Shown: piece after piece, positions 3,286 to 63,216 of the stretch
How the letters are laid out: each line of letters begins with the position of its first letter
Position numbering within the stretch: position 1 is the first letter of the stretch
Source: a virus
IMG/VR virus record: IMGVR_UViG_3300042502_001233
Coordinates: 298,019 to 362,018 of that record
DNA: 64,000 bases
Reading direction: 5' to 3' (one strand)
The notes under the pieces: generated by a model
Databases searched by the model: none
Seen by the model: the letters and a program-made list of their open reading frames with translations, nothing else
Told to the model about the DNA's origin: nothing
Program-made: the position numbers and the translations under genes

Positions 3286-3739
3286 TTTTATTTATTAGTT
3301 TAGTTGCTAAATAACATAAATCAATCGTTTTGACTTTTACTATAACGTCTTTTCTATTTTCTCTACGATAAAGTTCATACGTATCTTTTGATGTACCTAT
3401 TTCTTTACCTTTGGTTTTATTGGCAATAAATTCTTGTAATATAATTTTGTCAACAATAATCCAATAGTCTTCAGTTTCAAAAGCAAAAAAATCAGCATCA
3501 CCATATAACCAAGATAATTTGCCTCTAACATTTTTAAGTTCGACCCAATGAAAATTTTCATTGTAAAATAAATCTGACCTAGATTCTTTTTTCAAACTTT
3601 TAACATCTATTTTAGCTTCTATTTTCAAATCCCAATGTTCGTACATATCTTCTTCTTTTGTAGAAGGTGTAACATTGGTGAATAACGCAGAAAAATCATC
3701 TTCTTTTAATTTACCGATTATAAATTCTTTATTATTCAT
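3263..3739 (-). CDS. Putative PD-(D/E)XK-like nuclease
   Basis: The chosen start (MNNKEFIIGKLKEDDFSAL) is internal to a longer open frame because the upstream reading runs deep into the next gene; this start leaves an 8-base overlap. About 158 residues. The stretch WDLKIEAKIDVKSLKK with a later HWVELKN suggests the D-x(n)-ExK core of restriction-like nucleases, and LSWLYGDADFFAFE resembles the following strand-helix. The assignment rests on pattern only. The C-terminus overlaps the smpB start by 23 bases. Confidence 0.5.
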   Translation of the reverse strand: MNNKEFIIGKLKEDDFSALFTNVTPSTKEEDMYEHWDLKIEAKIDVKSLKKESRSDLFYNENFHWVELKNVRGKLSWLYGDADFFAFETEDYWIIVDKIILQEFIANKTKGKEIGTSKDTYELYRRENRKDVIVKVKTIDLCYLATKLINKNENNSKQ

Positions 3740-3983
3740 TTTTCTTCTTTTTAGTTTTCTTTGGCCACATACCTTCACATGGTTCTTGACACCATCTGGC
3801 GGTTCTGGCAACGATTACGTTAATGGTATGGATGTTACAACCATCTTCCAAGTGTTTGGCGTATTCTCTACACGCTGCTCTATCCATTTTATGTTTCACT
3901 GCAAGATGAACAACCCCGCCACATTTTGAACATGTGGCGGCCATTACTTCGACTTTACTTAAGTCTTCTTCTTGTTCTGCCAT
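3732..3983 (-). CDS. Small Cys-rich, probably zinc-binding protein (83 aa)
   Basis: Contains CSKC near residue 18 and further Cys/His residues (CREY, DGC, WCQEPC), then a very basic C-terminus (PKKTKKKK). This suggests a small zinc-stabilised nucleic-acid-binding protein. It starts one base before the stop of the phosphoesterase gene and overlaps the downstream nuclease-like gene, so all three are probably co-translated. Confidence 0.6.
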   Translation of the reverse strand: MAEQEEDLSKVEVMAATCSKCGGVVHLAVKHKMDRAACREYAKHLEDGCNIHTINVIVARTARWCQEPCEGMWPKKTKKKKNE

Positions 3984-5582: not shown

Positions 5583-6611
5583 TTAATTTTTTAATTTTAA
5601 TAACCATTGTAATTTGGCTTTTATGTTATATATTTTTAAACTAAAACTTTGTAACCATGTTATAAAACCTCTATATTTGTACGCTAATTTTAATTTTTTA
5701 ACAATACCCTTATGTTCGGTAGGCGATACCTTCATAATCCATGGCATCCAACTTATATCATCAGAAGCAACTATTGGAACTTTAGCTGTTACGAAATCAG
5801 CTGTAACAATGTTGAACGATTCAGAAAAAGATACTTGCATACCTATATCCATTTTAGATGCCGCTTCCAAAAATTCAGCATGTTTATACCATCTATGTTC
5901 AACCAACTCGTGTCTAGAATGTTCAAACAACGCTTGAATGTTTTTTAACGCATTGTCACCAGATTGTTCAGTTCTGGTTCCGTTGATATGAAATCTTAAA
6001 GTTTTACCTATTTTTTCAGCAAACTCTATCGCAGCCATCGCTTGTTGGTATGTGTTTTTCATTGGTCTAATCGCACCAAAAGAACCAATATCAACAAACT
6101 CTTTGCTTTTCACATGTTTTTTAGGTGTGAATGGTTTCGCTTTATAAATATTTGGTAAAAAGATAAAATTACCTTCTGGGAAACAGTAAGTTAATTGTTC
6201 AGTAAGTTCCGTTGTGTTAGGAGCAATTTCAATTTTTAACTCATCGATAGAAGCATATTGTTTTATCCATCTAGTTGCGATACCTTCGTTGGCCAAAAAT
6301 GGTGCTTTTGAATGTAATCTCACAATCCATCTTCTATTTAGATGTCTTTGGATTTGGAACAATTCTTTGAACTTTGCTGGTGGAACCCAAATAGCTTCAA
6401 TTATAACCACATCTGGGTTAAATTCAGTCACTACTCTATCAATAGAATTTGAGTCAGGTACTGGTGTAATTTTAGCATCAAAGTCGTTTTCATTTAGATA
6501 ATTAACAACAAAACTAGCTGAATTAAATAATCCAGATGTGACACCATAGTAGTCTTTTACTCTGTCGCAAGTTATAAATTGTATACGTTTTTTTGGGGTG
6601 ATTTCGTTCAT
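5583..6611 (-). CDS. Glycosyltransferase, GT-B (group 1/4) type
   Basis: A 342-residue protein with a Rossmann-like N-terminal domain (GVTSGLFNSASFVVNYLNE) and a C-terminal nucleotide-sugar-binding half. That half includes DIGSFGAIRPMKN near 185-197 and the late acidic segment VSFSESFNIVTADFVTAKVPIVASD, which matches the E-x7-E region of GT4-like enzymes. It is likely to modify host surface sugars or virion glycans. The start is preceded by an ATATTTATTATTAAA motif. A tRNA-like gene lies upstream. Confidence 0.8.
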   Translation of the reverse strand: MNEITPKKRIQFITCDRVKDYYGVTSGLFNSASFVVNYLNENDFDAKITPVPDSNSIDRVVTEFNPDVVIIEAIWVPPAKFKELFQIQRHLNRRWIVRLHSKAPFLANEGIATRWIKQYASIDELKIEIAPNTTELTEQLTYCFPEGNFIFLPNIYKAKPFTPKKHVKSKEFVDIGSFGAIRPMKNTYQQAMAAIEFAEKIGKTLRFHINGTRTEQSGDNALKNIQALFEHSRHELVEHRWYKHAEFLEAASKMDIGMQVSFSESFNIVTADFVTAKVPIVASDDISWMPWIMKVSPTEHKGIVKKLKLAYKYRGFITWLQSFSLKIYNIKAKLQWLLKLKN

Positions 6612-62847: not shown

Positions 62848-63019
62848 TTTGAGGCTGAGGCCTCTGTGTTGTAGTGACTACAAAGTCTATCCACTCTTCT
62901 ACCTACATCTCTACTACCACTCCGATATAGGGTGGGATGGTTCGGTCTCCTTATTTAGCATTCCTTTCTCAAGGGAACAACACAATATTTTAGACAACAA
63001 GATTACTTTTTTTCTTTTA

Positions 63020-63097
63020 CGTGCTCTAACCAACTGAGCTACCGACCCACTAGGAGCCGAGTGGGACTCGAACCCACGACCACGAGCTTAACAGGCT
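63020..63097 (-). tRNA. Circularly permuted tRNA-Asn (GUU)
   Basis: On the minus strand the 3' half is first: 63097-63053, reading AGC, loop CTGTTAA, GCTCG, TGGTC, T-arm GTGGG-TTCGAGT-CCCAC, acceptor TCGGCTC. A 4-base linker TAGT follows. Then comes the 5' half, 63048-63020: acceptor GGGTCGG, TA, D-arm GCTCAGTTGGTTAGAGC, A, CG. Joining CG to AGC rebuilds the anticodon stem CGAGC / GCTCG exactly, with anticodon GTT. The acceptor pairs over 7 positions (three G-U). Total 74 bases, every arm canonical. Confidence 0.8.
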
Positions 63098-63216
63098 ATA
63101 GATAGTTTTGTTGCTGAAATAATCTTTCTATGTCTAGTAATAACTCACGCAATTTCTCACGTGAATTATCGACCCCTTTTGTTATACTCTTGAGGGCACT
63201 CTGAGTTAGTTGGTGA

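Follow-up and report, generated by a model that had tools for sequence, protein, structure and literature searches.

A circularly permuted tRNA-Asn gene of a tRNA-rich phage and the RNA family to which it belongs

The permuted tRNA-Asn gene and its flanks

The stretch of DNA analysed here, referred to as the window, is the final 64 kb (64,000 nucleotides, positions 298,019 to 362,018) of the 362,018-bp phage record IMGVR_UViG_3300042502_001233, with about 45 tRNA genes. Near its end, at 63097-63020 of the minus strand, a tRNA-Asn is encoded with its T-half first and its D-half 4 nt further downstream, so that the order and the four-base gap proposed in a preliminary description of the locus were borne out. 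The same holds for its claim of a 74-base tRNA: once joined, the halves pair in all four arms (acceptor 7/7 with G-U, D 4/4, anticodon 5/5 and T 5/5), and the anticodon stem is restored exactly as had been stated, with CG+AGC opposite GCTCG. ARAGORN identifies the joined 74-mer as tRNA-Asn(gtt) and makes no call on the encoded order. The GUU anticodon, which is present in a canonical arm, is retained across an Asn group of six related phages, in which the stem changes through paired substitutions.

A separate complete partner for each half, which would make the two the end of one ordinary tRNA and the start of another, was sought, and none was convincing for either half. The four T-arms located within 900 nt downstream pair with the D-half at only 4-5 of 7 acceptor positions. 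The preliminary description had stated that neither half has another partner nearby; the halves are indeed each other's best partner, but one upstream 7-mer, GGGTCGA at 63175, pairs 7/7 with the acceptor strand of the T-half. Raised as a 5' partner by a match to the model of the ordinary-order (cis) relatives described below, it has no good D-arm and was rejected since relatives do not conserve it. Upstream 7/7 acceptor matches of this kind occur at 4 of 70 elements.

The flanks of the gene form a 7-bp stem named P1 (AAGAUUA/UAAUCUU, then G), which bears the motif UUUCAGCAA (Table 1). In this phage, TTTCAGCAA lies 13 nt upstream of the T-half, and the D-half is followed after 14 nt by TAATCTT. 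The 'ribozyme-like flank' suggested earlier holds in so far as the flanks make a dedicated structured element with a covarying stem, but no Rfam ribozyme or intron was matched. The first reading overlooked this stem, as well as a second permuted tRNA 500 nt further on (62512-62428) and a mini-element built in the same way. The phage harbours five TTTCAGCAA sites, all close to tRNA genes, and each shows a complementary 7-mer pair with a different 7-mer. They enclose two permuted tRNAs, one anticodon hairpin, one stretch with an anticodon-like part and a T-arm, and one stretch of 43 nt. Thermodynamic folding was uninformative for the first permuted element (z 0.3) and gave a moderate value for the second (z -2.2).

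Table 1. Positions of the permuted elements, the mini-element and their parts in the window
Feature	Position	Strand	Remark
P1 5' strand AAGATTA	63126-63120	minus	exact complement of 62999-63005; covaries across phages
Conserved motif TTTCAGCAA	63119-63111	minus	CNGC invariant in 29 cis relatives
T-half of tRNA-Asn, AGCCTGTTAAGCTCGTGGTCGTGGGTTCGAGTCCCACTCGGCTCC	63097-63053	minus	positions 29-73: 3 bp of anticodon stem, GTT anticodon, variable loop, T-arm, 3' acceptor strand
Linker TAGT	63052-63049	minus	4 nt, closes acceptor stem
D-half of tRNA-Asn, GGGTCGGTAGCTCAGTTGGTTAGAGCACG	63048-63020	minus	positions 1-28
A-rich tail TAAAAGAAAAAAAG	63019-63006	minus	from D-half to P1 3' strand; A 73-87% at four family positions
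P1 3' strand TAATCTT and conserved next G	63005-62998	minus	G in 128/129 elements
Second element, P1 5' strand AAGATTG	62538-62532	minus
Second element, motif TTTCAGCAA	62531-62523	minus
Second permuted tRNA, T-half	62512-62467	minus	loop TTTGAAA
Second permuted tRNA, D-half, GGGCGTG...GCACT	62453-62428	minus	acceptor 7/7 with CATGTCC
Second element, P1 3' strand CAATCTT and G	62418-62411	minus
Mini-element AGGGTGG-TTTCAGCAA-36 nt-CCACCCT-G	58330-58271	minus	36 nt with anticodon-arm-like hairpin (CAAA-CTTTTAA-TTTG)

A phage family with permuted and ordinary-order members

Related phages were searched for homologous loci, and these were found. The gene itself is permuted as the preliminary description had claimed, but it is not the oddity of a single phage, since the arrangement recurs in dozens of contigs from unrelated phages, always framed by the same conserved RNA element. 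IMG/VR scans made without a stem requirement, together with other loci, provided 225 distinct UUUCAGCAA sites. At 129 of the 225, an exact complement of the 7-mer lies 15-230 nt further downstream, compared with 2-7 in a control using displaced 7-mers, which excludes chance for the family. Among the 129, 58 different 7-mers occur, AAAANN precedes the 3' strand, and the base following it is G in all but one. The enclosed sequences fall into five classes, namely (i) an anticodon hairpin only, (ii) an anticodon arm and a T-arm, (iii) a T-arm, acceptor hairpin and D-arm without anticodon arm, (iv) a complete permuted tRNA, and (v) an ordinary-order tRNA lacking the acceptor stem.

Complete permuted tRNAs could be parsed in 71 of the 84 longer elements, and 70 of these 71 are recognised as tRNAs when joined, compared with none as encoded and 24.6 with shuffled partners. 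The split made by the module in the anticodon arm falls at 26|27 in most cases, at 28|29 in the window element, and at 30|31 or 31|32 elsewhere; joining restores the stem, partly by construction since the parser picks the best-pairing split. In the Asn/Lys class, acceptor pairing across the linker reaches 90% versus 63% in shuffled combinations, pairing of anticodon positions 29-31/39-41 93% versus 62%, and pairing of P1 100% versus 90%, while pairs 27-28/42-43 are invariant and thus uninformative for covariation. In the main class (23 representatives), acceptor positions 3-7 are paired in 22-23 of 23 members versus 12-18 after shuffling, and as many as four kinds of pair occur at a single position. 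The circular permutation of the tRNA-Asn-type gene in the window is genuine, and the gene is one member of an RNA family widespread in phages; the observation of the preliminary description is confirmed and its interpretation partly supported.

In the cis form, a hairpin and CNGCA (NNNCNGCA) module interrupts normally ordered tRNAs. It is carried by Vibrio phages D482, D479, KVP40, nt-1, ValKK3 and R11Z, by Aeh1, by the Rak2-like phages CBB, GAP32, SNUABM_47/50, XbC2 and Kaldavass, by cyanophage BUCT-ZZ01, and by IMG/VR contigs. C, G and C of the motif are invariant across 29 aligned cis examples; the MAFFT alignment leaves P1 out of register, and the resulting model R1 therefore contains acceptor, D and T pairs only. 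Some cis Lys genes of Rak2-like phages combine a conserved UUU anticodon with an encoded CCA, and in SNUABM_50 pair 27-43 switches from C-G to G-C across the insert, a compensatory change. The body of the cis forms is held constant while the anticodon loop varies in sequence and length, and loops of 8-9 nt occur in the family. The 'pseudo-tRNAs' 5, 4 and 3 of KVP40 (L199:3905-4151 and 5702-5817; GenBank AY283928), annotated as pseudogenes with the module unrecognised, are tRNAs carrying it as an intron-like insert, and two more module-bearing tRNAs (L199:3277-3396 and 3664-3786) are unannotated. The insert-bearing gene at L199:5702-5814 is of the Asn type. Cyanophage BUCT-ZZ01 harbours a near-identical insert, GCATTCTGTAAAGAATGAATTCTGCAAT, in two different tRNAs (L340:1497-1746), a repetition that would point to spread of the module between tRNAs.

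Three features define the module: the 7-bp P1 with the conserved G that follows it, NNNCNGCA(A) along one side, and an A-rich strand opposite. The whole is placed within a tRNA's anticodon arm. It exists in two topologies: as a hairpin inserted in an ordered tRNA, as an intron would be, or opened in its hairpin loop, with the tRNA closed at the acceptor stem, in a permuted intron-exon (PIE) arrangement. Its range covers phages of Bacteroidota type and those of Vibrio, Aeromonas, enterobacteria and cyanobacteria. The same kind of pattern gave at least 120 matches in GTDB genomes; among the matches listed, three had a complementary 7-mer and none was convincing, which is consistent with chance and with a module essentially absent from cellular genomes. 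The T4 tRNA cluster lacks the motif, and the stable RNAs C and D of T4 were rejected as family members on this ground. No Rfam family matches the module. Neither the module nor permuted tRNA genes in phages or bacteria were found in the open-access literature, subscription papers and most preprints being outside this coverage, and the novelty of both is provisional.

Some further features of the phage were noticed. Just upstream of the permuted Asn gene, a covarying hairpin (63180-63127, minus strand) with the conserved loop GTGRGRAANTGC occupies the same place in L089, L098, L107, L128 and L150. A tRNA at 62846-62732 (minus strand) has a 49-nt insert in its anticodon loop, which contains the T-arm-like hairpin TAGGGTTCGATTCCCTT and no CNGCA module; one D-half is followed by two possible 3' halves, a layout with a similar counterpart in the relative L107. 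In Lak phages, an intron that may encode a tRNA has been reported. At G000:58315 (minus strand), a further P1-like element, AAGATGA-TTTCTGCA...TCATCTT-G, surrounds about 176 nt of structured-looking sequence. The phage has genes for an RNA ligase of the Rnl2 type and for a fragment resembling Rnl1, and at L204:1204-1806 (G000 about 27,000) an Rnl1-type RNA ligase is seemingly split by an intein straight after the catalytic KLDG motif (LDG-CCHEDTVLITEDGEM...). The ends of the record (L009 1-200 and the end of the window) overlap by roughly 250 bases; the genome, though classed as linear, is therefore likely to be complete, and either circular or with terminal redundancy. Boxes resembling -7 elements (TAnnTTTG) suggest that the host may be a member of the Bacteroidota.

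Relation to known permuted, Y and intron RNAs

Until now, permuted tRNA genes had been regarded as confined to certain algae and archaea that possess a splicing endonuclease. In these organisms, the permuted precursors are joined at a bulge-helix-bulge (BHB) motif by the archaeal/eukaryotic splicing endonuclease. The phage genes resemble those of red algae and of the archaeon Thermofilum pendens (PMC3218864) in that the T-half lies upstream of the D-half and both together make one complete tRNA, and the precursors of either type would need acceptor-side processing and joining in the anticodon region. The phage family differs by its P1/CNGCA module, the lack of BHB enrichment and its occurrence in viruses of bacteria.

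Like the phage elements, the YrlA bacterial Y RNAs (RF02553; PMC8394870 and work cited there) possess an outer stem, an asymmetric internal loop and a tRNA-like T-acceptor-D domain with a closed acceptor stem. However, YrlA lacks an anticodon arm, has a different stem-loop sequence and requires Ro60/Rsr, whereas the phage family includes intron-like members in ordinary order. Over its full length, the window element aligns with RF02553 at 41 bits; the scores obtained, 41.2 and 21.3 bits, lie below the gathering score of 69, and tandem ordinary tRNAs alone reach up to 27.7 bits. A Ro60/Rsr (TROVE) protein is encoded by none of seven phages, a count which covers the phage genomes and not their hosts. 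The low score, the false positives given by tandem tRNAs, the absence of TROVE proteins and the cis forms all count against an ordinary Y RNA.

The tRNA introns of Lak megaphages (PMC6784885) are also short, unclassified inserts in phage tRNAs, but the two insert-bearing Lak-A1 model hits are devoid of CNGCA, which for these two inserts speaks against membership of the same family. In group I PIE systems, as in the permuted phage elements, an exon stands between intron halves in reverse order; the phage module, however, comprises about 40 nt and lacks a group I core. No Rfam match to a group I or group II core reached the gathering score, and a single group II match (E 1.8) is noise.

Joining or mimicry

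The anatomy, covariation, two topologies and distribution described above are established, and the chemistry is what we infer. We favour excision with joining, a reading to which we give an equal chance of being right or wrong. P1 would hold the D-half's end next to the T-half's start; after excision of the module, the two ends would be joined into a circle, which RNase P and a 3' nuclease would open at the acceptor linker, yielding a linear tRNA. Catalysis could lie with the RNA itself, with a factor of the host or with an enzyme of the phage. This reading is favoured because it explains both topologies and the restoration of the stem at different split points, because the near-identical BUCT-ZZ01 inserts are as expected of an intron, and because the cis Lys genes of Rak2-like phages have CCA together with a conserved anticodon. 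The recognition of joined halves as tRNAs, the covariation of acceptor pairs across the linker, the compensatory change in SNUABM_50, and the Rnl2-type ligase and Rnl1-like fragment of the phage also speak for it. For the window element, we lean towards joining because of its canonical Asn arm and the anticodon kept in six related phages, although the chances that it is joined are about even.

Several observations weigh against joining. None of the 71 permuted elements has a BHB near the junction, and the 3 of 29 cis forms that do equal the 3.0 found in shuffles; BHB splicing was rejected for this lack of enrichment. RtcB, found in none of seven phages, was likewise rejected. While Rnl1-type and Rnl2-type ligases are both encoded by all seven phages of the first set, Rnl1 is present in only 6 of 20 further element-bearing IMG/VR contigs of at least 156 kb. 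Since it is absent from the other 14, some of which may be incomplete, it cannot be the general joiner, and a T4-style repair was rejected in this role. At the syntenic loci of Rak2-like phages, no clean module-less allele was found, unrelated tRNAs being present instead. Linker lengths vary and the family has no conserved splice-site sequence. Elements with an anticodon hairpin only, or without anticodon arm, could not yield a decoding tRNA by any splicing. Most permuted elements lack CCA, while most neighbouring tRNAs encode it, and anticodons differ between phages, with loops varying on otherwise conserved bodies. A simple decoding role is further disfavoured by position 73, which is C in the permuted tRNA-Asn and G or T in its relatives, whereas the phage's two ordinary genes for tRNA-Asn(GUU) both have G73.

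The main competing explanation is that the RNA is never spliced and acts as a stable non-coding tRNA mimic, most likely a decoy for host tRNA-acting enzymes, notably anticodon nucleases, with P1 and CNGCA as a docking or stability module that presents parts of a tRNA, comparable to the protein-binding stem of YrlA Y RNAs. We regard it as a close second that falls short of an even chance. It accounts for the YrlA-like succession of outer stem, T-arm, loop-closed acceptor stem and D-arm with its end-to-end alignment, for the anticodon-hairpin-only and anticodon-less elements, and for the constant cis bodies with their variable, sometimes enlarged loops. It also fits the main class, in which CCA is missing where neighbouring tRNAs have it, the acceptor-closing loop UUGGUC is conserved and one body is found with many GNA-type anticodons. 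Among these, GUA and GGA are carried on 4-nt variable loops, unlike bacterial tRNA-Tyr and tRNA-Ser, which have long variable loops. Phage tRNAs are known to act against anticodon nucleases and retrons (PMC11555353, PMC10264068), and such a role would agree with this. On the other hand, the YrlA score lies under the threshold, tandem tRNAs alone reach 27.7 bits, and no TROVE protein is encoded by the seven phages. The anticodon arm is still canonical in Asn and Lys members, CCA is encoded in several cis members, and a module placed within the anticodon loop (31|32) would ruin it unless removed.

A special case of the favoured reading, compatible with it, is that the module is a small self-cleaving and ligating ribozyme with hairpin-ribozyme-like chemistry and no need for a protein. 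The invariant unpaired CNGC core beside a covarying helix, the conserved A-rich opposite strand, the existence of both topologies and the wide range of phages without a common splicing enzyme would suit it; we nevertheless consider it unlikely, given that no Rfam ribozyme or intron is matched and that no constant spacing separates the core from the presumed 3' junction. Barely credible, in our opinion, is the proposal that the halves are remnants of two ordinary tRNAs left by the decay of a tandem array, despite the dense arrays present here and the upstream 7-mer at 63175 that could act as a 5' acceptor strand. Covariation contradicts it: the acceptor strands of the T-half and D-half pair together and covary across the family, P1 covaries around the pair, and the 7-mer is not conserved in relatives. 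Returning to excision with joining, we tentatively propose, with the balance tipped towards doubt, that the module may be a splicing or circularising intron of a new, very small kind (core of about 40 nt), possibly autocatalytic and widespread in tRNA-rich phages. Working in cis and in permuted order, it would let these viruses obtain tRNAs, or circular tRNA-like decoys with changeable anticodons, from permuted genes in cells that lack a tRNA-splicing endonuclease.

The family is directly testable, as it is carried by the model phages KVP40, Aeh1, nt-1, CBB and GAP32. The 'pseudo-tRNAs' of KVP40 can be re-read as family members, and the same probably applies to many phage tRNAs labelled 'other' or 'undetermined'. 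Permuted phage tRNAs together with an apparently unclassified module would amount to one of two things: a small intron or ribozyme of a new kind, or a new and large class of RNAs that mimic tRNA in the conflict between phage and host over tRNA.
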